Assembly: GCA_902790215.1 (NCBI GenBank)
Contig: CADAQX010000016.1
Location: forward strand, 1 to 64,000
DNA: 64,000 bases
Source of the DNA: an uncultured Bacteroidota bacterium
GTDB lineage: Bacteria > Bacteroidota > Bacteroidia > Bacteroidales > P3
Reading direction: 5' to 3'
In this document: piece by piece, positions 8,457 through 38,608 of the stretch
How positions within the stretch are numbered: position 1 is the first letter of the stretch
How the letters are laid out: each line of letters opens with the position of its first letter
Made by a program: the position numbers and the translations under genes
The notes under the pieces: generated by a model
The model's database searches: none
Seen by the model: only the letters and a program-made list of their open reading frames with translations
What the model was told of the DNA's origin: nothing

Positions 8457-8475
8457 TCAAAAAAACATAACAGCT

Positions 8476-18138: not shown

Positions 18139-18245
18139 GGGTGCTTTTCTTTTTAAGTTTGACAATAACAAATAATTACTGCGATGTCGCATTTTTTTTT
18201 CAGACCGCTAAAGTACACAATACTTTTATAATAACGGGAAATGAG

Positions 18246-20740: not shown

Positions 20741-20903
20741 AAATAAGGAAGTTTGATGAAGCGTTTTTGTGCTAATAGGGAATTATTTCGTATCTTTGCA
20801 ATTGCTTTTGAAAGAACAGACGAATTTGGTGTAAATAGAATTGAAAGAATAGTTGATTCACCGCGCAGATAGATTGCGCGGAGCCTTTGTACTGTCAAAT
20901 TCG
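20741..20903 (+). repeat. Regulatory direct repeat, copy 1
   Basis: About 160 bp homologous to 22534-22684: both begin AAATAAGGAAGTTTGAT, contain AATTATTTCGTATCTTTGCAA with a -7 element (TATCTTTG, here 20791-20798), CTGCTTTTGAAAGAA or TTGCTTTTGAAAGAA, AGAATAGTTGA.TCACCGCGCAGA, and end with the palindromic module. The two copies flank the DUF4143-type ATPase gene as direct repeats. This copy's final -7 element is degenerate. Confidence 0.75.
20861..20897 (+). promoter_or_regulatory. Palindromic promoter module a (degenerate)
   Basis: Arms CCGCGCA (20861-20867) and TGCGCGG (20875-20881) are perfect inverted repeats around 7 bp. Exactly 10 bp after the TGCGC core comes TACTGTCA (20890-20897), a decayed form of TAnnTTTG. 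It has the same geometry as modules b to e, but promoter activity is doubtful. Confidence 0.6.
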
Positions 20904-20961
20904 TTGCCCATATACAATGACCTTAGAAGGCTGATACAATCAATAAGATCTTGGAAAAGTA

Positions 20962-21042
20962 CAATAATCTTGAAATGATGCAATATTTATTGTTGCAATA
21001 ATCTTGAAAAGTTGTATCTTTGCATTCGCAATAATCTTGAAA
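20962..21042 (+). repeat. Three direct repeats (iteron-like) at the ATPase promoter
   Basis: CAATAATCTTGAAA occurs at 20962, 20996 and 21029, spaced 34 and 33 bp, so all would lie on one face of the helix. They bracket the -7 element at 21015-21022, and the third covers the expected transcription start. A related AAGATCTTGGAAAAG lies just upstream (about 20946). They look like operator sites for a DNA-binding protein. Confidence 0.7.
21015..21022 (+). promoter_or_regulatory. Promoter -7 element for the ATPase at 21060
   Basis: TATCTTTG followed by CA. It shows that the reading frame ahead of about 21029 is untranscribed, so translation must start at the ATG at 21045 or 21060. Confidence 0.75.
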
Positions 21043-21059
21043 TAATGGAATGTTTTTCT

Positions 21060-22409
21060 ATGAAACGAAAGATTTACAACAAGTTATTAGAATGGAAGCA
21101 GCAACGCAACGGCACAACAGCTGTGCTGATTGAGGGTGCTCGGCGTATTGGCAAAAGCTACATCGTGGAGGAGTTTGCTCGCAACGAGTACGATTCGTAT
21201 ATTTTCATCGACTTCAACAAGGCTGACAAGGTGGTGGCCACCTGGTTCGACACCCTGCTGGATGACCTCGACACCCTGCTGATGAACCTCCAGATACATT
21301 ATGGCACTCGGCTCACACCAGGCAAATCTGTCATTGTATTCGACGAGGTGCAGCTCTGTCCGCGCGCCCGTGCCGCCATCAAATACCTGGTGGCCGACGG
21401 CCGGTTTCACTATATCGAAACGGGGTCGCTCGTCAGCATTAAGAAAAATGTACGCAACATCGTGATACCCTCCGAAGAAGAGGCGCTGCCTATGTACCCT
21501 ATGGATTTCGAGGAGTTCCTTTGGGCGTTGGACAACGACATGCTGATGCCCTATATCAGCCAATGCTACGAAAAACGACAGCCACTCGGCGCACTCCACC
21601 GCAAAGCATTCGAATACTTCCGCACCTATATGATTGTGGGCGGTATGCCACAAGCTGTTCAAGCCTTTGTTCAGTCGAAGGATTTCGATCAGGTAGATCG
21701 TGTGAAACGCGGTATCCTCCAAGTCTATGCCAACGACATCTCTAAATACGCCGCTGGTATGGAGCACAAGGTGAAAAGCATCTTCGACCAAATACCTGCA
21801 CAACTGCAGAAACATGAGAAAAAATTCCGTCTGTCCGCGCTGGAACCTGGCGCGGCCTACCGCGACTACGACGATGCCTTCTTCTGGCTCTCCGATGCCG
21901 GCATCGTGAATATTTGCTACAACTGCACCGCACCCAATGTGGGGTTGCGCCTCAACATGGAACGCAACACCCTCAAATGCTATATGGCCGACACTGGTTT
22001 GCTCATCTCCCATGCTTTCGACGAAAACGGTAAGGTTCCCGTGGAACTCTACCAGAAACTGCTTCTCAACAAGCTGGAAGTGAACCAGGGTATGATTGTG
22101 GAGAATATCGTGGCGCAAATGCTCGCCACAAACAACCACAAACTTTATTTCTACAGCAACTCCAGTCGCGACAACGCCAGCGACCGTATGGAGATAGACT
22201 TCCTTACAGCCAAAAGCAAGCTCACCACCCGACACAATATCACGCCCATCGAAGTGAAGTCGTCGCAACGCTATACCCTTTCCTCCTTGCGTAAATGTGT
22301 GGAGAATTTTGGAGAATACCTCGCCACTCCTGTCGTATTACATGGAGCCGACTTGAAGGAGGAAAACAGCATACTTTTTCTCCCGCTATATATGGCAACA
22401 TTGTTATAA
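21060..22409 (+). CDS. ATPase with DUF4143-like C-terminus
   Basis: 449 aa from the MKRKIYNKLLEWKQQ start (an ATG five codons upstream, 21045, is equally possible). P-loop GARRIGKSY (from residue 26), Walker B VIVFDEVQL (Asp95, Glu96), then the ETGSLVSIKKN sensor region and PMDFEEFLWAL, typical of the AAA_14/DUF4143 family. The C-terminus (ENIVAQML, MEIDFLTA...ITPIEVKSS) has the restriction-nuclease-like D...E-x-K core of that family. It is common and variably present in Bacteroidota. It sits between two direct copies of a regulatory repeat and behind three iteron-like repeats, suggesting tight, perhaps self-, regulation and possible loss by recombination. Confidence 0.9.
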   Translation: MKRKIYNKLLEWKQQRNGTTAVLIEGARRIGKSYIVEEFARNEYDSYIFIDFNKADKVVATWFDTLLDDLDTLLMNLQIHYGTRLTPGKSVIVFDEVQLCPRARAAIKYLVADGRFHYIETGSLVSIKKNVRNIVIPSEEEALPMYPMDFEEFLWALDNDMLMPYISQCYEKRQPLGALHRKAFEYFRTYMIVGGMPQAVQAFVQSKDFDQVDRVKRGILQVYANDISKYAAGMEHKVKSIFDQIPAQLQKHEKKFRLSALEPGAAYRDYDDAFFWLSDAGIVNICYNCTAPNVGLRLNMERNTLKCYMADTGLLISHAFDENGKVPVELYQKLLLNKLEVNQGMIVENIVAQMLATNNHKLYFYSNSSRDNASDRMEIDFLTAKSKLTTRHNITPIEVKSSQRYTLSSLRKCVENFGEYLATPVVLHGADLKEENSILFLPLYMATLL

Positions 22410-22533
22410 ATTGTTAAAATAAGTAAAGGCAAGACAGCTATAGGTATCATCAACAAAAAAAACTCCGCGCAAACTGGTACACGGCTATATCAGGCTGGTA
22501 CAAATAAGGAAGTTCCAGAAGTGAATATTGGGA

Positions 22534-22684
22534 AAATAAGGAAGTTTGATATAATTGTGCAGATAAGGAATTATTTCGTATCTTTGCAACTGCTTTTGAA
22601 AGAATGGATATGAAAAAAGAATAGAGAGAATAGTTGACTCACCGCGCAGAAAGATTGCGCGTGATGTTTGTACTTTTGCAGTCG
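22534..22684 (+). repeat. Regulatory direct repeat, copy 2
   Basis: Second copy of the ~150-bp repeat (see 20741-20903), with a first -7 element TATCTTTG at 22579-22586 and the palindromic module at its right end driving the WYL gene. A further fragment AAATAAGGAAGTT occurs at 22502-22514. Confidence 0.75.
22643..22678 (+). promoter_or_regulatory. Palindromic promoter module b (WYL gene)
   Basis: CGCGCA (22643-22648), 7 bp, TGCGCG (22656-22661); 10 bp after TGCGC comes TACTTTTG (22671-22678), then GCAGTCGAAAA. The palindrome covers roughly -20 to -35, so a bound protein would block the polymerase. Autoregulation by the WYL protein is an inference. Confidence 0.75.
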
Positions 22685-22701
22685 AAAAAAAACAGAATAT
22701 T

Positions 22702-23808
22702 ATGCCCGCTAATAAGAATGCTGTAACACGATATTACATACTGGACAGGTTGCTGGGCAACCGCTATCATAACTACTCTTCCAAGGATTTGTGCCAGCTT
22801 GTCAACGAGGAGTTGAAGGAACTGAGAGGTAAGGAAGAGTTGGAGAGGAAAGTGGAAGCGGTAAGCCTTCGCACCATTCAGGACGACCTGAATTATCTTG
22901 AATTTGGGCCGTTTCTTGCCGAGATTGAGCATTACCAGATTGATGTTCCAAGTCAGAAAAACCCCAGTAAGACCGTCAAGAAGACCTGCCACCGCTATGC
23001 CGACCCCTCTTTCTCCATCTTCAAGAAGGAGATGACGGAGGATGAGAAGTATCTGCTCTCTGAGGCATTGTCGCTGTTGGGCCAGTTCGACGGTTTGCCC
23101 AATCTGGAGGGCTTGGAAGCATTGAGAAAGAGTCTGAACGTGAAGACCGACCGGCAGATAATCTCCTTTACAAAGAATCCGTTGGAGAACTCCACTCTGC
23201 TTGGCGAACTCTTCACGGCCATTTCTCAACAGCAGGTGGTGGAACTGCACTATCACCGCTTCGACACTCCAGACGAGGAACGGACGGTGACGTTACATCC
23301 CTATCTGCTCAAGGAATACAACCGCCGTTGGTATCTTATTGCAGCAGCGGAGGAGGGCGGGAAGTTGCTGAACTTCGCCCTCGACCGCATTGACAAAGTG
23401 GTGCCGTTGCCGTCGCATGAATATGTACCGTATGATGGCGACCTCAACGAGCGGTTTGAGGACATTGTGGGCGTAACGCTCAATGATGACAAGGATTTGC
23501 AGACTATTGTGTTCTGGGTCAGCAACCGCTCCAAGGACTATGTGGCGACCAAGCCCATCCACGAGTCACAGCGCAATATCCGAGGGGAACGGGAAAAAGA
23601 GTTCCGCGAGAAGTACCCCACGCTGTGCGAAGGACGTTTCTTCTTGATTGACTGCATCGAGAACTACGAGTTGATTCGCGAGCTGACCTCCTTCGGCAAA
23701 GACTTGATAGTCCTCTCCCCGCAGAACATAGTAGAGCAAGTGCAGCAAAGGATTATAGAGATGCACAACGAGTACTCAGCCGTTTTTAAAAAAGATAAGA
23801 GCCGCTGA
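22702..23808 (+). CDS. WYL-domain transcriptional regulator
   Basis: 368 aa. The N-terminal ~90 residues form a winged helix (YYILDRLLGNRYHNYSSKDL, then VSLRTIQDDLNYLE, the recognition-helix pattern of DeoR/WYL regulators). The WYL domain lies at about 175-250: VVELHYHRFDTPDEERTV, LHPYLLKEYNRRWYLIA with the W-Y-L triad at 210-212, and LNFALDRI. A WCX-like tail follows. WYL regulators bind nucleotides or nucleic-acid signals and often repress defence genes (CapW, BrxR) through palindromes. The same palindrome lies before this gene and four other sites in the island. Stop to next start is 82 bp with its own promoter. Confidence 0.93.
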   Translation: MPANKNAVTRYYILDRLLGNRYHNYSSKDLCQLVNEELKELRGKEELERKVEAVSLRTIQDDLNYLEFGPFLAEIEHYQIDVPSQKNPSKTVKKTCHRYADPSFSIFKKEMTEDEKYLLSEALSLLGQFDGLPNLEGLEALRKSLNVKTDRQIISFTKNPLENSTLLGELFTAISQQQVVELHYHRFDTPDEERTVTLHPYLLKEYNRRWYLIAAAEEGGKLLNFALDRIDKVVPLPSHEYVPYDGDLNERFEDIVGVTLNDDKDLQTIVFWVSNRSKDYVATKPIHESQRNIRGEREKEFREKYPTLCEGRFFLIDCIENYELIRELTSFGKDLIVLSPQNIVEQVQQRIIEMHNEYSAVFKKDKSR

Positions 23809-23839
23809 GACAACTTTGACTGATATGAAAATAATTTCG

Positions 23840-23847
23840 TATTTTTG
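23840..23847 (+). promoter_or_regulatory. Promoter -7 element for the AlbA_2 gene
   Basis: TATTTTTG followed by CA, preceded by AAAATAATTTCG as at several promoters here. It lacks the palindrome, unlike its neighbours. Confidence 0.7.
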
Positions 23848-23890
23848 CAGAGAGAAAGAATAACAAAAGTATAGGTTTCCAAGGAAAGAA

Positions 23891-25423
23891 ATGATTAATA
23901 CATACGACATAAAGGAATTGCAACTACAGCAGGAAGGGCAGCAGTTTGACCGTAAAAGCTTCCGCATTGATGCCAAGACTTTGGCAGTGTTAGTGGTGGC
24001 TTTTGCCAATGCAGATGGCGGTGATGTGGTGATAGGCATAGAAGATAATGGCAAAATCACTGGTATCAATGGGAATGAAGACCACCTTAACGAGTTGCTG
24101 CGTGTGCCCTTCGACTTCTGTTTGCCATCTGTGCCTGTAGAGGTGCATTTTGTGGATTGTATCGATGAAGAAGGGAAAGCCAATAGGGTGCTGGTGATGC
24201 ATGTAGAGCCCAGTATGCGAGTGCATGCCAATCAAGTCGATGATGCTTACTACAGGGTGGGTGACAAGTCGAAGAAACTGAACTTTGAGATGCGCATGCA
24301 GTTGTTCTATGCCAAGGGTGGCCGCTATTATGAAGATGAACCCGTATATGGTGCGACCATTGATGACATCGACCTCGACTATGTTGCCCAGCATTGTAGG
24401 AAGATTGGCTATGCTAAAGATGCAGAGAGCTATCTACGTACTAACAAAGGGTATATTACGACAGTAAACGGGGTGGACAAAGTGTCGGGTGCAGCCATAT
24501 TGCTGTTTGGCAAGGACCCTCAGAAGTTCTTCCAACGGGCGCGTATCCGTATAGTACGCTATTTGGGTGACGAAGAACGCTTTGGCCGTGAGATGAATGT
24601 GGTGAAAGATGTATCGTTCGAAGGTCGAATCTTAGAGATGACACAAAAGGCAATCGCCTTTGTTGATACGCAAATCAGGGAGTACACCTTTTTAGGTGAA
24701 GATGCTCGCTTTGTCACCATACCGCAATATCCCCCATTCTGCTGGACGGAATTGATAGTGAATGCTGTTGCTCATCGCGACTACAGCATCTTGGGTACCG
24801 ACATCATGGTGAAGATATTCGACAATCATTATGTGGTGGAAAGCCCAGGAATCTTGCCTGGCATGGTGCGCATCGACAATATCCGCCAGATGCATTTCTC
24901 GCGTAATCCCAAGATAGTCGAGTTTATGCGAGAATACAAACTGGTCAAAGAGTTCGGCGAGGGTGTTGATCGTATGTTCCGTGAGATGTCCGAGGCTGGC
25001 AACCCTGCTCCTGAATATAAGCAGGTGGAGTTTATGGTCAAAGTGCGACTGAATTCTGCATTGAGGGAAGAGGATACAAATGATATAAAGGGAGGTGAAA
25101 AACAAGGGGGTGATCAAATAAAGGAGAAACGGCCGGAAAATGTCCTAGAAAAAACACTTAATAAAGAAGTGCAATTAACAGAAAGGCAGGCTAAAATAAT
25201 CAACAGGCTGAAAGAGACTGGCAAGATGAATGTCCTAGAAAATATCCTAGAAAATGTCCTGGAAACCTCCGCTTCATTGGCCTCCTATTTGGGGGTAAAT
25301 GAAAGAACCATTCGACGGGACTTGCAGTTTCTTCAGAAACAAGGCATCATCCAACATGTGGGACCTGATAAGGGTGGACATTGGGAGGTGATAGCGCAAG
25401 ATGAAAAAGGTGAGAAGCAATAG
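23891..25423 (+). CDS. AlbA_2 (Schlafen-like) ATP-binding transcriptional regulator
   Basis: 510 aa. Residues 14-140 form the Schlafen AlbA_2 domain (EGQQFDRKSFRIDAKTLA, FANADGGDVVIGIEDNGKITGI). A GHKL-like ATPase part follows at about 290-370 (WTELIVNAVAHRDYSI with the N-box Asn, HYVVESPGILPGMV, KEFGEGVDRMF). The C-terminus (about 430-500) is a winged helix (LTERQAKIINRLKETGK, LASYLGVNERTIRRDLQFLQKQGII). Such proteins are widespread putative regulators, often in defence islands. A short internal repeat (NVLEKTLNK, NVLENILENVLE) links the domains. It follows the WYL gene and precedes the large ATPase operon. Confidence 0.92.
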   Translation: MINTYDIKELQLQQEGQQFDRKSFRIDAKTLAVLVVAFANADGGDVVIGIEDNGKITGINGNEDHLNELLRVPFDFCLPSVPVEVHFVDCIDEEGKANRVLVMHVEPSMRVHANQVDDAYYRVGDKSKKLNFEMRMQLFYAKGGRYYEDEPVYGATIDDIDLDYVAQHCRKIGYAKDAESYLRTNKGYITTVNGVDKVSGAAILLFGKDPQKFFQRARIRIVRYLGDEERFGREMNVVKDVSFEGRILEMTQKAIAFVDTQIREYTFLGEDARFVTIPQYPPFCWTELIVNAVAHRDYSILGTDIMVKIFDNHYVVESPGILPGMVRIDNIRQMHFSRNPKIVEFMREYKLVKEFGEGVDRMFREMSEAGNPAPEYKQVEFMVKVRLNSALREEDTNDIKGGEKQGGDQIKEKRPENVLEKTLNKEVQLTERQAKIINRLKETGKMNVLENILENVLETSASLASYLGVNERTIRRDLQFLQKQGIIQHVGPDKGGHWEVIAQDEKGEKQ

Positions 25424-25503
25424 AAGCAAATAAATGGATTGACGAGTTTAATGAAAACAGAATAGAGAATTGAAAACACTGAAAAATAGATAGAAAAACC
25501 ACC

Positions 25504-25538
25504 GCGCAAAAAGATTGCACTTCAAGGGTGTAATTTTG
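25504..25538 (+). promoter_or_regulatory. Palindromic promoter module c (large ATPase operon)
   Basis: GCGCA (25504-25508), AAAAGAT, TGCAC (25516-25520; one base off the perfect palindrome), 10 bp, then TAATTTTG (25531-25538) and GCAGCCGAAAA. It is the distal one of two promoters ahead of the gene at 25618. Confidence 0.72.
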
Positions 25539-25563
25539 CAGCCGAAAACGAAACAGAAAAAAG

Positions 25564-25595
25564 TTTGTACGAATGCAATTAAAAGTGTATCTTTG
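25564..25595 (+). promoter_or_regulatory. Proximal promoter of the large ATPase operon
   Basis: TTTG (25564-25567) and TATCTTTG (25588-25595) with a 20-bp gap, a full consensus promoter, giving a leader of about 15 nt. A four-codon frame ATG GCT AAT GAA TAA at 25611-25625 overlaps the true start at 25618. Confidence 0.75.
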
Positions 25596-25617
25596 CAAAA
25601 TTAAAGTTTAATGGCTA

Positions 25618-28600
25618 ATGAATAATATTAAAGATTACATTCTTAACATCTATAATGGATTACAAGAGAATGAGGTTCTGCCTATTAGTAATGATTCTAT
25701 AAAAGATGCGATTCGTCATATAGAAGTATTTAGTTTGAAAGATTCAAAGAACCTTTTTGTAATTGTAGCTGCTCTGAATTTACTAAGTGCTGATGCTAAG
25801 AAAAACGTTAAAACCAATCTGTACTACAGTTATATAAAAAGTAATGTAAGCAAGGTTGCAGATTATGTAATATCTAATAAAAATATATTTCCAGATGCTT
25901 CAGTTTATTATGATAAAAATCAACGTTGTTTTTATTTCAATGTTTTTGAAGTGATATTTAGTTTCCATCAAGTCAAAGAGACTGAAAAAATATTAGAAGC
26001 AGCAAATTATGACCCAATAATATGGCCAGGCATAAGATTACAACGTATAGCTCAAACCATTTTTGATTATGCAGTCACAATGTCAAGTGATAATGCTGAA
26101 ATAGTGGAAAAATCAGATTCATCTATTACTGAACTGATGAATCAGGATCCACTTTTTTCTTGTCCAGACTGTGGGAAACAAATATCAAAATCTGCTAAAT
26201 TCTGTCCTCATTGCGGGTTTGACAATAGTGGAGACGAAGAGATCGTCAAAGACGTAAATGTTGGTAATCGAGTTCAGATAGATTCTAATGGAACTATAAA
26301 AGTTGGCACAGTTCAAACAAAAGGGAAAAACTATCTCGGATTAAAACTACAAGATGGAACTATTTATCGTGTTAGATATAATTACATTTCTTCTATATCT
26401 TTGATAACTCAGCCAGTTATTGAGAATAGTTCTGTTTATGAAAGTACTGCAGTCTCTAATCGTTGTTATGAACTATTGCGAAGGATAATCATGTTAGAAG
26501 AAATTGATTGGAGTTCGAATATCTTGACTAATTCGGTATTAAAAGAGATTTCGCCTATGCGAATAAGAGCAATTACAGATGGCGGGAAGTCTATTTATTG
26601 TAGATTTCCTGTTGGTTTTTCGTGGAAATCTTCTAAAGTTGGTGATAGGATTTTTAGTGTTAATAGCTCTAGTGAAGGTATTTCTATTTATTCCATTATG
26701 GAAATGTCATATACGGATTTATGTGATCATTTCAGATATAGTATTGGAAATATCAAACTCGGTCCAAAGAACAAAGGAGTACAACATTGCAAGTCAATAA
26801 TCTTGTATATCAAACAGATAGCCAAGAATAAAGAATCTAAGGCCTTATTAAACCATATAAAGAAAGAAATAAAATTGTTATCTTCATTTTTCTTGATTAA
26901 TGAAAACGAAGATCAAGCATTGCTAAATAACAATAAGCAAGGAGTACATAAGAATAGTAACCCCCAAAAAGAATCTACTGAATCAGAATCCAATCTAAAA
27001 CAATCATTAAAGACCCAAGTTGGAGATACGGTTAATTCGGAAATACCAAATGATGCGATGCCTACGCAACCCACATACAAATTGGATATTGTTGAGGACG
27101 CAAAAAAAAACAGGATTCTTTCAAATGAACTGCCTTTGATGGCAGAATCCGAATGTAGACAAATAGAGAAGGATCTTGATACCATGATACGAGAAGGGTT
27201 GAGGGAAGAATGCCTGTCAAAATCCTATGAGGTAATCACCACTCAAAGGCCAACTCCTAAATACTTAAGAAGTTATCTTGACCGAATTGTAAATACTGAA
27301 ATTGCATTAAATCATACAGAACAGGCGAAAGAAACACTTGCCGTACTTATCGCTTTCAGTGAAAGCCAAGAAGATACAAAGCCTAATAATTTAAGTCACC
27401 TGTATATATCATTAGCCCGATTGTTTGTTAAATCTGGAGATAAAGAAAATGCAAGATTATCGTTAGATTGGGCAGAATACATATTCCCAAAAAACAAAAA
27501 AGTTGTGTCCACTCTAAGAAATACTATTGGTGAGAACGAGTTTGATACACTAATTGCTTCAGCAGATGGCTCAAACATTGTTCAATCAGCGATAGTACAA
27601 GATGTTGTGGTAAGCAGAATGTTGATTCAAGATGTAGAACAATATGCAAAATCTCAAGCGACTTTGGATGAAGAGGAATCAACGCCACTTGAATTATTCA
27701 ATATGGCCGAGATGGCTAGCACAGACACTACAAAGAGTTTTGAGTTTAGAGCACAAATGTTTCTTGATGCTGCTGCAGCATACTATAATGCTAATTTGTC
27801 ATCGAATACGCAATTTAAATTGGCAGTTGCACACTATGCGAGAATGAAAGGCAATTCTCTGATGGCTAAAATAACAGAGTCAGTACAACAATATCCAGAC
27901 AGCCAATCTCTTTTAATCGCTGAATGTGACAGCGCAAGAAGTTATTATCTTGAAGCTTTAGGGCTGTATAATGATCTCGCGCAAAAAAGGTATCTCCAAG
28001 AGTTATTATTAAAATATTTAAAGATTGAGAGTTTGGCATCCCAAATAGAAGGAGGTAGAACCCCAGATTCAGAATGGCATAAGGGGACGTTAAAAGTAAA
28101 GATGCGTGATTGTCTGAAAGACTTCAATATAGAAAGTCAGAAAGTACTTTATCGTGCATGTATTGCTATTGGTTCTTCTTCGGAAAGGGCGTGGAACACT
28201 CTTTCTAACGATGAGGATGGTATAGGCCCATTGTATGGAAAATTAGGTGGTGATATAGAATTCAGAAGGAAAGCTTATGAAATCATAAATACAATGGAGA
28301 AATCTTTTGTTGATATAGATCTTGCTCCAGGAGAATTCTTACGTAAGATTTTTGAAAATCGCCAAACTCGTGTTAAAGAATTAAGAAACAGAATAGAAGA
28401 TTGTCTTTCTTGGGATTTTGATCCATTTAATATTTCATCATTTGAAGAAAAATGGAGATTAATCGATGAATATAAGGAACTAATGACAACCACTGATAAG
28501 TTGGCGTTTGGTTCAATAAATGAAGTGATAAACATTTTAAAGTCTTATGTGGGACAAAAGATTGATGTACGTTTTCTTAACCTTGTTAGCTCACAGCAAA

Positions 28601-30285
28601 TACTGATTAAGAGTAAGCGTATAATTGCTGAGACAACGACCTTCTATGGACGTATTTTATTTTTCCATCTACAAGAAAAGTGGTTGAAAGAAATAAGTCG
28701 TCAAATTGAAGAGAAAGAAGCAAGCGCATTGCCACAACTGCAGATTTTGCCAGAACCTTGCTATATCAAATTGAACGATGATGAAATGGGCGTTATTGAT
28801 TTTGTTGTCGTGAATAATGGTGTTTCCACCGCCCAATCTTTTGTCATCACCGCCACGATTAATGGAAAAGAATACGTAGTCACACATGAAGAAGAATTAG
28901 CAGCTGGAGATACTTGCGAAGAATGCATTGAATCTAACGATTTTAGCCAACTTGATTCAGCAGATGTTTTATTTAAGCTAACTGCAAAACATAAAGAGAG
29001 AAATTTGCCCACAACGGAGACAGAGGTCACATACGAAAAGGAAAGCGGCGAAATTTTGACAGATATACCTTGGACCATAAAAAACACACCTAAAGAAACT
29101 ATCTTCAAAGGACGTGAAGGTAAATTAACCACGCTGATTTCCCATTATCTTTCTGAAGAAAGGTACATGACTTTTATCCTTTATGGGTTGACAAGAACAG
29201 GTAAAACTTCAATATTAGATTACCTTTGTGATAGAATTGATGGAAAAAAAATAAAAGAAGATGAAACAAAAATCATTAGGGCATTCAAATGGTCATTTGA
29301 TGACAAAGAATTTAAAAATATAAAGAGGTCTGACTTATGGGCACATTTGTTAGAAACACGTATTTACGATATACTTCCAGATGAATTAGCTAATGCTGTT
29401 GACGCTGCATATCAAGAACAGGGATTGCCTCCAGCAGACAAACTTTCACAATCTGACTTGGATATTATTATTGACGCTCTTAATAGTTGTAATATTATAC
29501 CCCTTATTGCAATTGATGAATTTTCTTATATTCGTAAAATAATAGAGGAAGGATTGTTGGATACTACTTTTCTTAAAAAACTCAGAGAAATATCATATTC
29601 AGGAAGAGCGTGCTTCTTATATGCTGGGACTTACGACATCAAAGATATTCCCAAAGAATATGGTTTAACAGGCGAGATGAATAATACTTATGGCATGCCT
29701 ATTAATGAGATTGAAGAAGAGTATGCTAATGAATTAATAGATGTTTGTCCTAATCTTATTTTTGATGACAAAGCAAAAAGTCTCATTCGAGCCCTTTCGG
29801 GTTGTGTCCCTTATTGGATACAGTGGATTTGTTTAAATTGTGGAAAATATGCTATTGCGCATAGACGTCGCCATTTAGGGGTTAGAGACGTAAATCATGT
29901 TGTTGGGGTCATGACCGGCGAAATTCAGCCTAGCAAGAAAGACACTTGGCAAGAAATTGACGAAATTAATTTCTATAACAACCAAATTGATCCAAATAAC
30001 ATTGCTGAACACCAACTAATTTCAAGTATCGCATTCATTGTTAGAGGAAGCACTCATAATGAACGTGGCGTAAGCATGGATGAACTTAATAGTCTATGGA
30101 ATAAATACAATGTTAATGAGTCTGTCCGCAAGAATATGGTACATGCTCTTACTGAACTAGAAAAGAGAAAAATAATAAAACAGTTCACGGATGAAACACG
30201 TGAAGTATATCGATTAAATGTAGATCTTTTCCGCAGATGGTGGTTTGCTCACCATAGAGACCTCGATCGTGAATTTAAACAGTAA
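25618..30285 (+). CDS. Giant zinc-ribbon, TPR and C-terminal ATPase protein (unassigned)
   Basis: 1555 aa, one of the longest genes here and visibly AT-rich. In order: an unrecognised helical N-terminus (1-170); a zinc ribbon with Cys182, Cys185, Cys196, Cys199 (CPDCG and CPHCG); an SH3-like beta segment (about 215-270); an Asn/Ser-rich linker (440-500); TPR-like helices (about 510-870); a helical stretch; an Ig-like beta sandwich (about 1040-1135); and a STAND/AAA ATPase with P-loop GLTRTGKTS (1190-1198) and Walker B LIAIDEF (Asp1300, Glu1301). It ends in a winged helix (about 1480-1555). Stop to the next ATPase start is 12 bp, so they form an operon. The build (sensor repeats plus NTPase) resembles STAND-type immune sensors, but no known Avs or other named architecture is matched and no effector domain is visible. 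Confidence 0.9.
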   Translation: MNNIKDYILNIYNGLQENEVLPISNDSIKDAIRHIEVFSLKDSKNLFVIVAALNLLSADAKKNVKTNLYYSYIKSNVSKVADYVISNKNIFPDASVYYDKNQRCFYFNVFEVIFSFHQVKETEKILEAANYDPIIWPGIRLQRIAQTIFDYAVTMSSDNAEIVEKSDSSITELMNQDPLFSCPDCGKQISKSAKFCPHCGFDNSGDEEIVKDVNVGNRVQIDSNGTIKVGTVQTKGKNYLGLKLQDGTIYRVRYNYISSISLITQPVIENSSVYESTAVSNRCYELLRRIIMLEEIDWSSNILTNSVLKEISPMRIRAITDGGKSIYCRFPVGFSWKSSKVGDRIFSVNSSSEGISIYSIMEMSYTDLCDHFRYSIGNIKLGPKNKGVQHCKSIILYIKQIAKNKESKALLNHIKKEIKLLSSFFLINENEDQALLNNNKQGVHKNSNPQKESTESESNLKQSLKTQVGDTVNSEIPNDAMPTQPTYKLDIVEDAKKNRILSNELPLMAESECRQIEKDLDTMIREGLREECLSKSYEVITTQRPTPKYLRSYLDRIVNTEIALNHTEQAKETLAVLIAFSESQEDTKPNNLSHLYISLARLFVKSGDKENARLSLDWAEYIFPKNKKVVSTLRNTIGENEFDTLIASADGSNIVQSAIVQDVVVSRMLIQDVEQYAKSQATLDEEESTPLELFNMAEMASTDTTKSFEFRAQMFLDAAAAYYNANLSSNTQFKLAVAHYARMKGNSLMAKITESVQQYPDSQSLLIAECDSARSYYLEALGLYNDLAQKRYLQELLLKYLKIESLASQIEGGRTPDSEWHKGTLKVKMRDCLKDFNIESQKVLYRACIAIGSSSERAWNTLSNDEDGIGPLYGKLGGDIEFRRKAYEIINTMEKSFVDIDLAPGEFLRKIFENRQTRVKELRNRIEDCLSWDFDPFNISSFEEKWRLIDEYKELMTTTDKLAFGSINEVINILKSYVGQKIDVRFLNLVSSQQILIKSKRIIAETTTFYGRILFFHLQEKWLKEISRQIEEKEASALPQLQILPEPCYIKLNDDEMGVIDFVVVNNGVSTAQSFVITATINGKEYVVTHEEELAAGDTCEECIESNDFSQLDSADVLFKLTAKHKERNLPTTETEVTYEKESGEILTDIPWTIKNTPKETIFKGREGKLTTLISHYLSEERYMTFILYGLTRTGKTSILDYLCDRIDGKKIKEDETKIIRAFKWSFDDKEFKNIKRSDLWAHLLETRIYDILPDELANAVDAAYQEQGLPPADKLSQSDLDIIIDALNSCNIIPLIAIDEFSYIRKIIEEGLLDTTFLKKLREISYSGRACFLYAGTYDIKDIPKEYGLTGEMNNTYGMPINEIEEEYANELIDVCPNLIFDDKAKSLIRALSGCVPYWIQWICLNCGKYAIAHRRRHLGVRDVNHVVGVMTGEIQPSKKDTWQEIDEINFYNNQIDPNNIAEHQLISSIAFIVRGSTHNERGVSMDELNSLWNKYNVNESVRKNMVHALTELEKRKIIKQFTDETREVYRLNVDLFRRWWFAHHRDLDREFKQ

Positions 30286-30297
30286 TAATAGAAAGAT

Positions 30298-32124
30298 ATG
30301 GAACCATTTATTGTTAATAAAGTTATAGATGATATTAATTGCCTTTATGGCCGTTCAAGATGCATAGATACTCTCATTTCGTGTGTCAAACGTCGTGAGA
30401 ATGCGGGAATAATTGGAGCACGTCGATTTGGAAAGACGAGTTTGCTAAAATCCATGTTGTCTTATATCGAATCACATCCTGAAATAAATGCATTGCCAAT
30501 ATATTTTGATGTAAAAGATGATTTTACCGACATACACAAAGATACTCCTAAAGTCTACTATACATTAGCAGCTATATTAGCCAAGAAGATGTGTGATACG
30601 GGGATTCTACAAGAGGGAAATTACAGCATATCAAGAAGATGCATTTTGGATGTATCTGCAGATTTGTCTGACATGATTGTTCAAATGAGCTCATGGCACT
30701 CCGAATACCAATCAAAGGCTTTTTTCAATTTGACAGATGAAGTGTGTAAACACGGAAAATATGTTTTGTTGCTACTCGATGAGATTGATTCTCTTCTTCT
30801 GGATGCGTTTAATACTCCATCAGATTTTGGAAGAATTAGAGGTGCCGCAACAGATAAAACTGAAAAATTGGCATTTTGGATTGCGGGGACATCTTCTTGG
30901 AAGTCAATAACGAAGAGTATTGGCTCTCCAGAGCTAAACTGTGGATTAGAACAGATAAGACTATCCTCTTTAGATAAAGAAGACTTTGCTGCTATGTGGA
31001 AAAACGAATGTTCCCTCATAGATAATAAAGATTTGTATCAAAAATTAGTTTTACTTGAAGATGCAATTTATTCAAAAACTGGTGGCGTGCCTTATTATGC
31101 AAAGTTCATAGGGTCTAGTTTTATGAATGGTAATATTACGGAAATGCCAGACTATAGCATTCTACGAGATTACTTGATTGGAATATTCGAAAGTAGATTT
31201 ATGACTGATGATGAACGCTCTGCCTTAAAACTATTATCAAAAGGGGGAAAGGTATTTGCAGAGAATCTTCCCGATGGAATTGTTGCATTATATAATAAAG
31301 GTTTAGTAGAAATAAAACAGAGCGGTGAGTATTATGTTGCCTTTCAATTTTTAGCCGACTATGTTAACGCTATCAGTTCGAATAGCATTTTAGAGACATC
31401 ACCAGATATTGAAAAGAAAGAACGAGAATTATTAGTGGATGAAATAGATAGATTGCGAAAAGCCGTAAATAAATTATATAAAAGTAATAAGCCATTCGTT
31501 GCTACAGACGATGATACGACTGATTTTCGTAATTTGAGAATTCCTTGTAATGAAGAATCTGCTCTATTTGCCTTCGCAACTTCATTATATAAACTTTATT
31601 ATGAGGGAAGTGGGAAAGGGAATAGGCTTCCTGTTGGTTTTTATGATGATAAGTTTACGAGAATGATAAGAGTTTTACGACATAAGTGTGATCATCAGGA
31701 TTGTATAACTGATTTGATGGATGATGACGAACTCTATGAAATGATAAATAATGGAAATCCACCCATCTCACCGGACCATTTTAAGAACATACAAACAAAT
31801 GTTCTTCTTATGTTTAAAGATGAACTATTGTTAATGATAGAAAAGGGGCCTAAAAATGACAAAAAGAAAGCCTCTCCAACTCCTGAATTAAGAGAGCAAC
31901 TAATTGATGGGGAATGTTTCGAAGGAGTTATTGTTAAGGTGAGTAATCAAAATGGTACATTCCTTAATGTAAAGTGTAACCAATACCATCACACTCTTCC
32001 TATAAAAACTAAGCGTGAAGAATTATTTGTTGATGATGTTGTTTCATTTAAGGCCATTTGTGAGCCAAATAAAAAAGACCCAAACAGAGATTTTTGGGCT
32101 GCTTATGATGTTCATTTGAAATGA
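30298..32124 (+). CDS. AAA ATPase with C-terminal OB-fold-like domain (unassigned)
   Basis: 608 aa, second gene of the AT-rich operon. P-loop GARRFGKTS (40-48) and Walker B VLLLLDEIDSL (Asp161, Glu162) within an archaeal-type ATPase domain (FYGR-like start LYGRSRCIDTLI; sensor FWIAGTSSW). A winged-helix part follows at about 290-365. A helical domain with conserved-looking RVLRHKCDHQD lies around 395-510. A Lys-rich linker is followed by a C-terminal OB-fold-like segment (about 535-608: FEGVIVKVSNQNGTFLNVKC, LFVDDVVSFKAI), similar to cold-shock or S1 domains, which suggests nucleic-acid binding. It may work with the 1555-aa partner. The terminator follows 47 bp after the stop. Confidence 0.9.
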   Translation: MEPFIVNKVIDDINCLYGRSRCIDTLISCVKRRENAGIIGARRFGKTSLLKSMLSYIESHPEINALPIYFDVKDDFTDIHKDTPKVYYTLAAILAKKMCDTGILQEGNYSISRRCILDVSADLSDMIVQMSSWHSEYQSKAFFNLTDEVCKHGKYVLLLLDEIDSLLLDAFNTPSDFGRIRGAATDKTEKLAFWIAGTSSWKSITKSIGSPELNCGLEQIRLSSLDKEDFAAMWKNECSLIDNKDLYQKLVLLEDAIYSKTGGVPYYAKFIGSSFMNGNITEMPDYSILRDYLIGIFESRFMTDDERSALKLLSKGGKVFAENLPDGIVALYNKGLVEIKQSGEYYVAFQFLADYVNAISSNSILETSPDIEKKERELLVDEIDRLRKAVNKLYKSNKPFVATDDDTTDFRNLRIPCNEESALFAFATSLYKLYYEGSGKGNRLPVGFYDDKFTRMIRVLRHKCDHQDCITDLMDDDELYEMINNGNPPISPDHFKNIQTNVLLMFKDELLLMIEKGPKNDKKKASPTPELREQLIDGECFEGVIVKVSNQNGTFLNVKCNQYHHTLPIKTKREELFVDDVVSFKAICEPNKKDPNRDFWAAYDVHLK

Positions 32125-32171
32125 ATGGTTTGAATAGAATCTATTTCTTGTTGTATTTTTTGGGGGGGGAT

Positions 32172-32202
32172 GCCGGGTAATAATTTATTACCTGGCTTTT
32201 TT
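32172..32202 (+). terminator. Terminator of the large ATPase operon
   Basis: GCCGGGTAATA pairs with TATTACCTGGC (one G-U) around a short loop, then six T. Confidence 0.9.
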
Positions 32203-32250
32203 GTTGTCTTCAAAGCTTTTTTATTGCAAATCCCGCTATACTTTATTTGC

Positions 32251-32285
32251 GCGCAAAAAGATTGCGCAGCATTGTTGTAATTTTG
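32251..32285 (+). promoter_or_regulatory. Palindromic promoter module d (paralog pair)
   Basis: GCGCA (32251-32255), AAAAGAT, TGCGC (32263-32267), 10 bp, TAATTTTG (32278-32285), then GCAATCGAAAAACAAC. The most complete copy of the module. Confidence 0.78.
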
Positions 32286-32328
32286 CAATCGAAAAACAAC
32301 GAAGAAACAATCACCAAAGAACAAGATT

Positions 32329-32802
32329 ATGGAAACTATGACTATCACAAAGAACATGACGAATACGGCTCTCACAACCATTGCCGCCAAGGCTCTTCCT
32401 GCTCTTTCGGGCAGTTCTCTCACTTACAACCCAGAAAAGAATGTTTTCTTGACAATGGGCTACACTAGCAATGCTGGGAACACTTATTATCGTGCAATAC
32501 GATTGTCTAATCGGTTGGCTGTGTACTACGACCTTGGGGAAGGTTATAAATATACCTTTCTTAACGGCATTACGCTGTACGCTTGGGATGGGCAAAAGGC
32601 CAATATCATTGCTAAAAAGACTTGGGGAGGGTGTGATTGGCGCTGCTTCAATGAGAGTGATGCTAAGAATGAAAGCATACTTATGCTGAAGGACTACCTT
32701 GCGGGGCAAGTGAAGGCCATGGGATGCAGTGTCCCCGATAGCCAACTCCTCAGTTTCTCACGAGGAATGATTGAGGAGACCCAACAGAAACTTCTACGAT
32801 AG
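32329..32802 (+). CDS. Hypothetical protein, paralog of the next gene
   Basis: 157 aa, soluble, no signal peptide. The core (about 40-105) reads YTSNAGNTYYRAIRLSNRLA, then YTFLNGITLYAWDG, which aligns with the protein at 32850 (YESASGHRYYKGIRFCDRLA, YTWTYIDGIELYAFNE). Spacing and pattern suggest a small beta-sheet domain followed by a helical tail (about 115-157). The family is not recognised. It is the first gene behind promoter module d, and the pair forms an operon. An alternative start at residue 4 or 10 cannot be excluded. Confidence 0.82.
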   Translation: METMTITKNMTNTALTTIAAKALPALSGSSLTYNPEKNVFLTMGYTSNAGNTYYRAIRLSNRLAVYYDLGEGYKYTFLNGITLYAWDGQKANIIAKKTWGGCDWRCFNESDAKNESILMLKDYLAGQVKAMGCSVPDSQLLSFSRGMIEETQQKLLR

Positions 32803-32849
32803 ATACTGTTGAACGAACTCAATGTATAACCAACAAAAAAGAGAAAGAG

Positions 32850-33350
32850 ATGGCGTTACTTACCAAGGCAAACAATAAGACTCTTTTTGATAGGATACTA
32901 CCATCATTCGGAAATCCAAGAGAGCGTATCCCTGTATGGGATGAAGGCCAAAAGATGTTTATCTGCGAAGAATATGAGAGTGCAAGTGGCCATCGCTACT
33001 ATAAAGGAATCCGTTTCTGCGACAGACTGGCTGTCGTGGAAAAAGTGGGGCTTTATTACACTTGGACGTATATTGACGGTATCGAGCTATATGCGTTTAA
33101 CGAAACCCGGATGGAACTTGTCCAGAAAAGAGATTATGATAAAGTATTCCGAAGCGAAACGTTCGTCCGCCGAGAAACAGAAATCATGGTACGGAATTAC
33201 TTCGAAGGGATTATGAAAGCCCAAAAGATTTCCATGCCCAAAGAACAGATTGAAGCACAAGTCAAGGAAGTCGTTGATGGATGCTATAAAAGCTTTCTTG
33301 ATAATGATTTTAATCTTCGACTTATACAAATCATTCCTCAAATTGAATAA
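32850..33350 (+). CDS. Hypothetical protein, paralog of the previous gene
   Basis: 166 aa, soluble. It shares the beta-rich core with the product of 32329 (see there) and a longer helical C-terminus (ETEIMVRNYFEGIMKAQKI, then EQIEAQVKEVVDGCYKSFL). It starts 47 bp after the preceding stop without its own promoter, so it is the second gene of the operon. The two diverged paralogs may form a heterodimer or recognise different targets; function unknown. Confidence 0.82.
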   Translation: MALLTKANNKTLFDRILPSFGNPRERIPVWDEGQKMFICEEYESASGHRYYKGIRFCDRLAVVEKVGLYYTWTYIDGIELYAFNETRMELVQKRDYDKVFRSETFVRRETEIMVRNYFEGIMKAQKISMPKEQIEAQVKEVVDGCYKSFLDNDFNLRLIQIIPQIE

Positions 33351-33367
33351 TGAGGATCTATTTTTTT
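33335..33367 (+). terminator. Probable terminator of the paralog pair
   Basis: TCCTCA (33335-33340) pairs with TGAGGA (33351-33356) over a 10-nt loop, followed by a run of seven T (33361-33367). The stem is short and overlaps the end of the gene. Confidence 0.5.
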
Positions 33368-33406
33368 CTTCCTTGAGTTATGAAAAATGAGTGTGCAAGT
33401 TGGCCG

Positions 33407-34231
33407 TTATTCATACCTTATCATGCCAGCCAGCTGGAGGAAATAGTCGTTGCTCCAGATGTCGAGGTCGTGGGGGGTGCGGACAAATGGCATCACATCG
33501 GCTTTTACCTGCCTTATGTCTGTTGTCGCCAGCCGTTCCTTAAGCATGTCGGTGAATTGGTCGCGGTTTATTTCAAGGCCGTTGAATTCTTTTATCCGCA
33601 TCTGTAGATGGCTGAAGTTAAGCGGCACCTGATTGCGCACGTACCACTCGAAGTCGTACCAGTCGCGCCCTTTCACCCGATGTTTCCACTGCCGAAATAC
33701 CAAGGCATGCATCTTGCCGGCAAAAAGATTGGGGAGGGTGACACAACGCGTGAAGAATGAGAAGGGCTGCAGCAACAACCTTTCTTCGGTTTCGAATTGT
33801 AAGGGCGGTTCGGTGTCAACCTCTATCTTAATCTTCAGGCTCTTCTCTGTGGTGAAAGAGAGATTATAAACGTCGGTGTTGTCTTTCAGAAAGGCTGACT
33901 CCACTTTGCCGAAATTGCGCTTGTCCTTTTTAGTTATCTCCACTTCGCGCCCCAGGAGGTGGCATTCGTCGATGATGGCGGGGAAGTATTTCTCCAGAGA
34001 AAAGCTGCTGTCTTTGTGCAGCAGGGTGAAATCCATGTCTTCCGAATAGCGGTTCATACCGTGGAAGATACGCAGACAAGTGCCGCCATAGAAGGCTGCT
34101 TCGGAAAAGAAGCCACCCCGATAGAGTCCGCAGAGGACAACCTGTTGCATCACTTCGTATAAAGCATTGCGCCTGGCGTCGGCAGTATCCATAGGATAGC
34201 GCGATAGCATCTGCTTTAATATGTCATTCAT
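33407..34231 (-). CDS. abiEii: AbiEii/AbiGii-type nucleotidyltransferase toxin
   Basis: 274 aa. It belongs to the AbiEii (type IV toxin-antitoxin) family of DNA-polymerase-beta-like nucleotidyltransferases, which arrest growth and can abort phage infection. The defining motif GGTCLRIFHGMNRYSEDMDF (about 49-68) holds the catalytic GG/S and D.D residues. Further family features are KIEVDTEPP, LFAGKMHALVFRQW and KGRDWYDFEWY. Its start overlaps the last 8 bp of abiEi, giving tight coupling. It is transcribed toward the paralog pair. The length is normal for the family, and all key residues are present, so it should be active. Confidence 0.93.
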   Translation of the reverse strand: MNDILKQMLSRYPMDTADARRNALYEVMQQVVLCGLYRGGFFSEAAFYGGTCLRIFHGMNRYSEDMDFTLLHKDSSFSLEKYFPAIIDECHLLGREVEITKKDKRNFGKVESAFLKDNTDVYNLSFTTEKSLKIKIEVDTEPPLQFETEERLLLQPFSFFTRCVTLPNLFAGKMHALVFRQWKHRVKGRDWYDFEWYVRNQVPLNFSHLQMRIKEFNGLEINRDQFTDMLKERLATTDIRQVKADVMPFVRTPHDLDIWSNDYFLQLAGMIRYE

Positions 34232-34856
34232 GGCTTATCAGTTTTGTCAGTAGGGTGATAATATTGTTTTTCACGGGTGCATGTTTGCCACATTGTTCAA
34301 GAAGCGACACATCAAAATGGCTAAGGGCATCCATATCGAAGCGCAGGTCATCGGCAAGCCAGCTCTTGAGGCTCTTAATGCTTGTGGCTATCAGGCCAGA
34401 GTTTTTTACAATCAGGTCGCACAGAGCCTTCTCTGGTGAGGCGACAAGATAGGTGTCGGCATCTTGGGACTCCTGCCGTATGCCAAGGGAGAAATAGTTC
34501 TGCGGGCACGAGTAATAGGAAAAGCGTCCAATGGGTGTGTCGAAACTGCGGCTGTGCTTGATGGTCATCGACTGGGTTTCATATACCCGCTCGGGGATTA
34601 GGCCGTAATGCCGCAGAGCGGTGTGCATGCTGACATAGGAAGGGCCATAGAGATGGTTGGCTATAAGCATAGGTATTATAGTGGCACCGTCGTCGGCGCT
34701 GCGCACGTAAAGACCGCGCTTCAGCCTGACGATATGCCCTTCCTGCTCCAAACGGCGTGCCTTGTCGTTGATTTGGCGGGTGCCAGCATACAAAGACGCC
34801 AAGACAGATGTCGTAAAAGGAGTGTTACCAACTTGATTAAGTGCGGTTTTTGTCAT
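34224..34856 (-). CDS. abiEi: AbiEi-type antitoxin
   Basis: 210 aa from ATG at 34856. An N-terminal winged helix (MTKTALNQVGNTPFTTSVLA, NDKARRLEQEGHIVRLKRGL) is followed by the AbiEi C-terminal domain (SYVSMHTALRHYGLIPE, SRSFDTPIGRFSYYSCP, VASPEKALCDLI). AbiEi antitoxins block the toxin and repress their own operon by binding inverted repeats. A reading frame continues 123 bases upstream, but it runs through the promoter and operator, so the MTKTAL start is chosen. Confidence 0.92.
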   Translation of the reverse strand: MTKTALNQVGNTPFTTSVLASLYAGTRQINDKARRLEQEGHIVRLKRGLYVRSADDGATIIPMLIANHLYGPSYVSMHTALRHYGLIPERVYETQSMTIKHSRSFDTPIGRFSYYSCPQNYFSLGIRQESQDADTYLVASPEKALCDLIVKNSGLIATSIKSLKSWLADDLRFDMDALSHFDVSLLEQCGKHAPVKNNIITLLTKLISHE

Positions 34857-34879
34857 TTGTTGCGTGTTGTTTGGTACTG

Positions 34880-34887
34880 CAAATATA
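34880..34887 (-). promoter_or_regulatory. Promoter -7 element of the abiE operon
   Basis: Minus strand reads TATATTTG followed by CAG, an exact TAnnTTTG match about 24 bp ahead of the abiEi start. Confidence 0.75.
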
Positions 34888-34889
34888 CG

Positions 34890-34936
34890 AATTTTGTACA
34901 GAAAAACGAGAAAAAGTCGTTTTTCTGTACAAAATT
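34890..34936. promoter_or_regulatory. Probable AbiEi operator: 20-bp perfect inverted repeat
   Basis: Arms 34890-34909 and 34917-34936 are perfect reverse complements (core TTTTGTACAGAAAAACGA) around GAAAAAG. They lie directly upstream of the abiE -7 element, over the -33 region, where bound antitoxin would stop transcription. Confidence 0.75.
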
Positions 34937-34973
34937 TTCCATTTTTATCATGAAATACCATGAAAAATAAGGC

Positions 34974-35008
34974 GCGCAAAAAGACTGCACGTGGAGGGTG
35001 TAATTTTG
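34974..35008 (+). promoter_or_regulatory. Palindromic promoter module e (helicase)
   Basis: GCGCA (34974-34978), AAAAGAC, TGCAC (34986-34990), 10 bp, TAATTTTG (35001-35008), then GCAGCCGAAAAACAAC. Divergent from the abiE promoter. Confidence 0.75.
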
Positions 35009-37106: not shown

Positions 37107-37482
37107 AAAAGATTGTCGGATGCCGTTGCGGTGCTACGGTTGTTGCAGTTCAGAATGTTTTTTTTCAAGATGGGGGGGGTAATAGTGGAATGGAACTGTA
37201 GCACTGTAACAACTGTAACAGTTACGCTGGGGGAGGTGCTTATGGGTCGAAGTTGCCTCTTTGTGGGGTCGTTGCGGGGCCGTTGTGAGGAGCGAAGCTA
37301 GAGCGAAGGCAGAGCGAAGGCAGAGCGAAGCCTCAACGGCTCCTTCATCCAGAGGGACGGTTTGCTGTGTCTGAACACGAATTGCCGCGAATCATTCAAT
37401 AATTGTCTGGCGGTATCTTCGTGATAATTTGTGTTGTATGCTGTTTTTTGTAGGGGTTTGTGTCTATGTTGTGAAATTTGTG
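37107..37482. other. Intergenic stretch with a short tandem repeat
   Basis: No gene is supported. At about 37291-37332 the unit AGAGCGAAGGC is repeated roughly three times (AGCGAAGCTAGAGCGAAGGC onward). Near 37200 lies ACTGTAACAACTGTAACAGTTAC, a small inverted repeat in pieces. No strong terminator for the helicase gene is visible. Confidence 0.5.
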
Positions 37483-37490
37483 TATATTTG
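37483..37490 (+). promoter_or_regulatory. Promoter -7 element for the EFR1 ferredoxin
   Basis: TATATTTG followed by CAGGGCG, about 54 bp ahead of the start at 37545. Confidence 0.7.
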
Positions 37491-37544
37491 CAGGGCGAAA
37501 GCGGAGGTTGTCCGCGATGGTATTATCATTTTAATAAGTGGATT

Positions 37545-38318: not shown

Positions 38319-38519
38319 CTTGAATTGAGACCTGGAGAAGGGTTTTTCCGGGTGAAAAATACCGAGACTGTGGGGCTGTTGATAACTTGTTGCAATCAGG
38401 TGCCGATTGTATACAGATGTTAAGTTGTAAAAGATTGATTTAAAGTGCCTCGGTGAGATTTTAAGTTTTTTTAACAAGCAAAAGTGCGATTGTTACTTTG
38501 CGGGGTGAAAAATTAGTTG

Positions 38520-38527
38520 TAATTTTG
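38520..38527 (+). promoter_or_regulatory. Promoter of the rpsL-rpsG-fusA ribosomal cluster
   Basis: TAATTTTG followed by CATTCC, about 80 bp ahead of rpsL. The gap of 290 bp before rpsL has no gene. Confidence 0.75.
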
Positions 38528-38608
38528 CATTCCATTTCGAGGGTGAATTATGCCCTCGTGAGGTAACAGAAAACATTAATAATTAAGTATATAACATTAA
38601 AAGACAAA

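Follow-up and report, generated by a model that had tools for sequence, protein, structure and literature searches.

WYL control of defense genes is already known, including control by BrxR at two places of one island, as is DriD-type activation of several promoters. The DriD operator, as given in the accessible part of a preprint (PMC12340889), is a 20-bp pseudo-palindrome with the consensus ATACGAC-N7-GTCGTAT that lies over the −35 element; the same portion describes DriD promoters with a constant operator-to-−10 distance, poor −35 matches, and a bidirectional promoter. The primary sigma factor reads a −7 element, TAnnTTTG, and a −33 element, TTTG, according to the available part of PMC7366714. 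We present here a promoter module in a 64,000-nucleotide stretch of DNA, called the window below, from an uncultured Bacteroidota bacterium (positions 1 to 64,000 of contig CADAQX010000016.1, GenBank assembly GCA_902790215.1). The module places a palindrome, GCGCA-N7-TGCRC, 10 bp (N10) before TAnnTTTG and recurs in an island of otherwise unrelated genes, one of which encodes a WYL-domain protein. It is probably a promoter with a built-in WYL operator, at which the liganded WYL protein would activate its own gene and three neighboring operons in the manner of DriD. Comparative sequence evidence shows the operator, its geometry, and its pairing with the WYL protein; we infer the dimer binding, the activation, the ligand, and the role of the window genes in phage defense.

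The whole genome (2.98 Mb in 40 contigs, the window being part of contig 16) was scanned. The five palindromes named in a preliminary description of the window were all found at the coordinates given there. The full module, GCGCA-N7-TGCRC-N10-TAnnTTTG, is exact at 22644, 25504, 32251, and 34974; the copy at 20863 has 3 mismatches, all of which fall in its −7 element (TACTGTCA). Those four are the only exact modules genome-wide, every one in the island and none at a random or housekeeping position, in a scan that the preliminary description had proposed. The bare palindrome occurs at 8 further places in the genome, none of which is left, unlike the five sites of the island, when a RAWARRY center is required. 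At a tolerance of up to 3 mismatches, the window holds 7 module matches, against a mean of 1.1 and a maximum of 5 in shuffled sequences. The start region noted earlier, GCA[AG][CT]CGAAAA, stands after all four intact copies. Copy 1 lies inside a 158-column stretch that is 78% identical to the pre-WYL region holding copy 2, and an ordinary promoter, TTG-N19-TATCTTTG, stands at 21015, ahead of the DUF4143 gene; for these two reasons copy 1 probably arose by duplication of the region around copy 2 and no longer works, so that four of the five copies first proposed are likely to work.

Across 99 genomes, the window's own included, the exact module was found at 30 sites in 16 genomes, and the backwards control pattern at 0 sites in all 99. 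A stricter core plus −7 element matched 72 loci in the genome collection; by their record titles these belong without exception to Bacteroidota, from Bacteroidales to Saprospiraceae, Chryseolinea, Mucilaginibacter, and Chitinophaga; named records with the module are largely rumen and gut Bacteroidales assemblies. The same pattern had 0 matches in the viral collection, which gave no sign of a viral origin.

The module and WYL genes occur together. Within the genus, 59 genomes divide into 14 with both, 1 with the module only, 10 with a WYL relative only, and 34 with neither (Fisher p 1.8e-6), which places a WYL relative in 14 of 15 module genomes versus 10 of 44 genomes without the module. All 14 genomes with both carry at least one module on the WYL contig, within about 3 kb; in the exception, G055, the modules stand on a contig of 7.8 kb. 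Long open frames were grouped across the 72 loci that the DNA pattern alone had identified (stretches of up to 8 kb, some sharing a contig), and WYL was the commonest family (34 loci). The next two, present in 11 of these loci each (L031-L102), look like DUF1016 (YhcG) nucleases and DUF4062 proteins. The linkage was also approached from the protein: two WYL searches gave 44 and 51 matches, the query of the latter coming from a motif locus, and 30 of each were analyzed as loci, which left 58 full-length WYL genes once two loci with partial WYL genes (L130 and L131) were dropped from the 60. A relaxed palindrome, TRYGCA-N7-TGCRYA, lies within 250 bp upstream of 23 of these 58 genes (shuffles: mean 0.013, maximum 1 in 300 rounds), and in a further 7, all from this genus, the core GCGCA-N7-TGCRC is present with different outer letters. 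At 14 of 91 sites a WYL gene comes first behind the module. Between three WYL groups, the stretches best conserved are the SxRT[IV]QxD recognition-helix stretch and the N-terminal 18 residues (40-48% and 40-62% identity, versus 19-35% in other segments); such conservation of the recognition helix is as expected if all groups read the same operator. The module is thus very probably, as far as sequence comparison can tell, the operator of the island's WYL protein (22702-23808). The earlier proposal, in which a single controlling protein would govern unrelated genes by way of a fixed promoter geometry, gains support from the restriction of the exact module to the island and from the WYL linkage. 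The search of relatives that it called for found the same module before other defense-type genes, with one regulator family, WYL, as the commonest neighbor.

The spacing between palindrome and −7 element is nearly constant. When the strict palindrome was searched in the 99 genomes without requiring a −7 element, TAnnTTTG stood at exactly N10 in 26 of 29 sites, the remaining 3 being the decayed copy 1 and two sites without a −7 element. A phylum draw of 394 genomes gave 27 palindrome sites outside the window's genome: none has an exact −7 element within 40 bases, 8 have a one-mismatch −7 element at exactly 10 bp, 2 have one at gap 11 only (L162, which adjoins a WYL gene, and L173), 2 have one at other gaps, and 15 have none. 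Most of the 19 palindromes without a −7-like element at N10 are taken as chance occurrences. In the set derived from WYL proteins, a −7-like element (one mismatch allowed) stands at gap 10 in 18 of 25 upstream palindromes, and any other gap from 4 to 18 has at most 3 such sites; the exact elements number 7 at gap 10, 2 at gap 11, and 1 at gap 17. Among 335 TAnnTTTGC sites without the strict module, TTTG is commonest at gaps 19-21 (20, 22, and 11 sites; 53 in total), in agreement with the −33 TTTG reported for the primary sigma factor (PMC7366714); these positions lie within the span of the palindrome. In the island, TTG occurs at gaps 19-22 in five ordinary intergenic promoters and is absent there in the four modules. 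The palindrome very probably substitutes for the −33 element. The 335 sites also show an extra TTG peak at gaps 12-14, which probably derives from module variants missed by the strict pattern. Sixty sites, mostly from close Bacteroidales relatives, have the module extended by TG just before the −7 element (82% each) and by CA-N-Y-CG-AAAA after it, and 43 sites of distant lineages keep little beyond the palindrome, the gap, and the −7 element.

The window's WYL protein matches PF13280 above cut-off (expect value [E], 4.5e-15). A WCX match (2.4e-4) falls under cut-off in this protein and over cut-off in a relative (L182), and an NCBIfam scan gave the protein no name. Its AlphaFold2 model (mean predicted local distance difference test [pLDDT], 79; predicted template modeling score [pTM], 0.41) has an N-terminal winged helix-turn-helix (HTH) of helices 5-18, 27-41, and 56-68 and strands 75-83 and 91-99. 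Foldseek matched the model to DriD (E 1.9e-13) and PafBC (8.9e-13) versus CapW (5.0e-9) and BrxR (9.8e-8); by full-length fold DriD is the closest, holding ranks 1-5 at a template modeling (TM) score of about 0.43 for a model whose pTM is 0.41. A profile search gave PafBC 1.7e-13, DriD 4.8e-7, BrxR 4.2e-5, and CapW 1.1e-3. A single-sequence search matched DriD (3.1e-4) and one PafBC chain (3.9e-3) and, up to E 10, neither CapW nor BrxR.

We propose that the WYL protein (winged HTH, linker, WYL, and WCX) would bind TGCGCA-N7-TGCGCA-like palindromes as a dimer. The palindrome would fill the −33 region, where domain 4 of sigma normally reads TTG, 10 bp from TAnnTTTG. Basal expression could come from ordinary promoters at 22579, before module 2, and at 25588, after module 3. 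Upon damage or infection the WYL domain would sense a ligand, probably a product of nucleic-acid damage, and the operators would be bound; the liganded protein would then hold RNA polymerase at the module promoters, replacing the contact of sigma with −33, with the outcome that its own synthesis would rise and the three neighboring operons would be switched on together. Single-stranded DNA (ssDNA) is a possible ligand that should not be assumed. Two arginines of the PafB WYL domain are required for ssDNA binding by PafBC, according to the accessible part of PMC11804915, and DriD has both of its ssDNA-binding arginines in our alignment. The PDB also holds, by title, a structure of CapW with ssDNA.

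Several observations weigh against this scheme. An operator over −33 would also suit a repressor, and the defense-linked BrxR and CapW repress, according to the portions available of the reports on them (PMC9122601 and PMC9122588). The −7 elements are near consensus, partly since most searches required them, and could fire unaided. The gap is not perfectly rigid: L162 and L173 have gap 11, and gap-11 elements occur also in L119, L127, and L210. No WYL gene turned up in 38 of the 72 motif loci, in stretches of up to 8 kb; neither palindrome form lies within 250 bp upstream of 28 of the 58 WYL genes; and G041 and G023 carry further modules on contigs without a WYL match. The site on contig 11 of G041 (L017) looks like a chance match. 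A three-helix bundle of the DriD type is not clearly resolved in the model (pTM 0.41), which has only helices 113-126 and 135-144, at a pLDDT of about 60-72, between the winged HTH and WYL domains. The arginine pair is incomplete in 22 of 22 aligned proteins by a count made by eye, the first arginine being missing in 20 ([AP]LDR) and the second in 2 (RLDQ).

The same protein and operator could serve repression, the WYL protein blocking RNA polymerase at −33 until a ligand made during infection releases it, as with CapW and BrxR. We regard this as unlikely. Repression would suit the near-consensus −7 elements and the location of the WYL gene behind its own operator, and both CapW and BrxR, in what is accessible of PMC9122588 and PMC9122601, are WYL repressors of defense operons that bind palindromes or inverted repeats near promoters. 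Their sites, however, are placed differently: according to the same sources, those of CapW overlap −10, and BrxR has two, R-BOX1 shortly after its promoter and R-BOX2 upstream of PbrxA, whereas the site described here lies over −33 with a 10-bp spacing that hardly varies, and the four modules lack TTG at gaps 19-22. Fold and profile searches rank DriD and PafBC over CapW and BrxR, and repression would probably not reach the ordinary promoter at 25588, which lies beyond module 3. Activation is favored, as the probable mode, because of the near-rigid spacing, the missing −33 element, and the fold.

Far less probable is a reading of the palindrome by another regulator or by an alternative sigma factor, with the WYL gene as a frequent passenger or target. 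The 38 motif loci that show no WYL gene in the stretches examined, and the Schlafen/HTH protein that adjoins the WYL protein in the window, would fit such a reader. WYL genes retrieved by similarity nevertheless carry the palindrome (23 of 58), even when they are divergent and not behind the promoter, and the −7 element is the ordinary primary-sigma TAnnTTTG in the available part of PMC7366714. A copied repeat without regulatory role, either an insertion-sequence end or a duplicated promoter, is scarcely credible: copy 1 does duplicate the copy-2 region, and flanks ACCACC and CAGCCGAAAACGAAA recur in some close relatives, but the palindrome is present upstream of WYL genes found independently of it, and the viral collection gave 0 matches. 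Two specific candidates were tried and rejected. Relatives of the Schlafen/HTH neighbor, considered as the regulator, occur in 9 of 102 fetched loci versus 47 for WYL; an insertion-sequence or recombination repeat was set aside since other families vary in flanks and genes and keep the palindrome, the gap, and the −7 element.

Elsewhere in the phylum the module stands before genes of RNA repair. All 8 gap-10 promoters of the phylum draw, from 6 genomes, precede one: RtcB (L164, L165, and L186), TROVE/Ro60 (L176, L181, L182, and L185), or RlaP (L163), with Pfam run on one of each. RtcB or TROVE is present in the stretch in 14 of 23 WYL-derived loci with the relaxed upstream palindrome versus 3 of 35 without it, and at RNA-repair loci the WYL and repair genes are often in divergent orientation. 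From the breadth of RNA repair we infer that it is the ancestral target. RtcB was not found in the window's own genome, so the regulon here would be the island alone.

Outside the window, 86 genes come first downstream of a module, and 24 of them were chosen for a Pfam scan; 8 of these gave no match, and one gave only a leucine-rich repeat. Among the genes in first place are five related reverse-transcriptase genes (L046, positions 985-2427 on the minus strand, L026, L064, L088, and L091), which start 277-585 bases behind the module and whose leaders form long stems of the kind that retron non-coding RNAs should have. The L046 protein, the only one scanned, has RVT_1 and retron-type PADLOC matches; Y-A-D-D is present in four of the five, and the fifth frame ends at the edge of its stretch. 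Rfam gave no match in the four retron-type loci searched. Inside the 585-base leader that follows the L064 module at 678, a second, near-exact module stands after a small open frame and immediately ahead of the retron-like leader. Other first genes encode a Pycsar-type cyclase, a type I methyltransferase, a GmrSD-type protein, a caspase-like protein, two HEPN proteins, a ResIII protein, four ATPases related to one another (AAA_15 in the one scanned), and five PIF1-like helicases, among them that of the window. Of 10 first genes submitted to PADLOC, 3 had no match (L048, L086, and L102). Tentatively, the module may mark a phylum-wide inducible regulon of stress and immunity, in which WYL activators act ancestrally on RNA repair (RtcB, Ro60, and RlaP) and sense RNA damage rather than ssDNA; the cassette would have been placed before many anti-phage systems (retrons, Pycsar, restriction, HEPN, and PIF1), and the damage from one attack would switch on a whole island.

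The island (Table 1) is flanked by a ribonucleotide reductase gene (15562-18192) and, on the other side, by a ferredoxin/flavodoxin-type gene and rpsL (37431-38992). Its contents include ATPases related to the PADLOC candidate families PDC-S27 and PDC-S01. The 1,555- and 608-amino-acid (aa) proteins (25618-32124) have almost no family matches, and their genes could be an undescribed defense system. An AbiEi/AbiEii-type pair (33407-34979, minus strand) occupies the interval from module 4 to module 5 and has no module itself. Outside the island, positions 8431-15354 encode a 2,307-aa protein with nine fibronectin type III stretches, a MAM domain, and a Por secretion tail. An Rfam scan of the window found only a transfer-messenger RNA and two tRNAs.

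Table 1. Module copies, ordinary promoter element, and genes of the island, in window coordinates
Feature	Position	Strand	Remarks
Module copy 1, decayed (palindrome intact, −7 element lost, TACTGTCA)	20863..20897	+	3 mismatches; resembles the copy-2 region
Ordinary −7 element TATCTTTG, TTG at gap 21, upstream of module 2	22579..22586	+	Putative basal promoter of the WYL gene
Module 2: operator 22644-22660 and −7 element TACTTTTG 22671-22678	22644..22678	+	23 bp ahead of the WYL gene; autoregulation proposed
WYL-domain regulator, 368 aa, proposed to bind the module	22702..23808	+	Pfam WYL 4.5e-15, linkage, fold
Schlafen AlbA_2 / HATPase_c_4 / HTH protein after the WYL gene	23891..25423	+	Ordinary promoter at 23840
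Module 3, ahead of the 1,555-aa and 608-aa genes	25504..25538	+	Ordinary promoter (25588) downstream
1,555-aa protein, zinc ribbon, first gene behind module 3	25618..30285	+	
608-aa protein, weak AAA_14 match under cut-off	30298..32124	+	
Module 4, ahead of the paralogue pair	32251..32285	+	
Paralogue pair, 157 and 166 aa, 27% identical over 134 columns	32329..33350	+	Without Pfam match
Module 5, ahead of the PIF1-like helicase	34974..35008	+	
PIF1-like helicase, 688 aa	35040..37106	+	Relatives come first behind the module in 4 other loci

The joint switching-on of multi-system defense islands is an open question, and the present case allows the operator, the geometry, and the sensor protein to be recognized from sequence. 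The literature searched, which leaves most subscription papers outside it, gave no description of the module operator or of a WYL regulator of RtcB/Ro60 in Bacteroidota, nor of a single WYL operator-promoter cassette common to unrelated operons of one island and to RNA-repair and defense genes across the phylum. With the module as a signature, defense and RNA-repair genes can be searched for throughout Bacteroidota, and a link made by WYL proteins between RNA damage and immunity can be tested directly.

The comparisons with DriD, PafBC, CapW, and BrxR that follow draw on the accessible portions of the sources. The best fold match of the window's WYL protein is DriD, a homodimeric WYL activator of Caulobacter crescentus (PDB 8tp8 and 9pfq). 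Both systems have a pseudo-palindrome with a 7-bp center (here TRYGCA-N7-TGCRYA, the TACGCA variant of which shares TACG...CGTA with the DriD consensus), a site over the −35 element (here −33) at a constant distance from the −10 element (here −7, with a few sites at gap 11), several target operons, and a divergent arrangement, found here in many distant relatives. They differ in that identity over the full-length fold matches is 16-18%, that DriD has both ssDNA-binding arginines whereas the pair is incomplete in the module-linked WYL proteins, that the targets here are defense and RNA-repair genes and the promoters are of another class, and that in this genus the WYL gene itself lies behind the module. 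PafBC of mycobacteria (PMC11804915), the best profile match, is likewise a WYL activator whose promoters are read without the usual contact of sigma with −35; unlike the protein proposed here, it is a heterodimer that reads a −26 motif, with an ssDNA ligand and a DNA-damage regulon. CapW and BrxR (PMC9122588 and PMC9122601) are also WYL regulators of anti-phage systems that bind repeats near their own genes, and BrxR acts at two places of one island, but they are repressors with sites over −10 (CapW) or flanking the promoter (BrxR), whereas the operator here covers −33; they match the fold less well, and their chains are of 291-299 aa versus 368 aa here. RtcR, which controls rsr-rtcBA (PMC7790460), shares with the module of distant Bacteroidota the kind of gene controlled (RtcB and Ro60/Rsr) and a divergent regulator gene, but it is an unrelated protein, a CARF and sigma-54 activator, that senses tRNA fragments.

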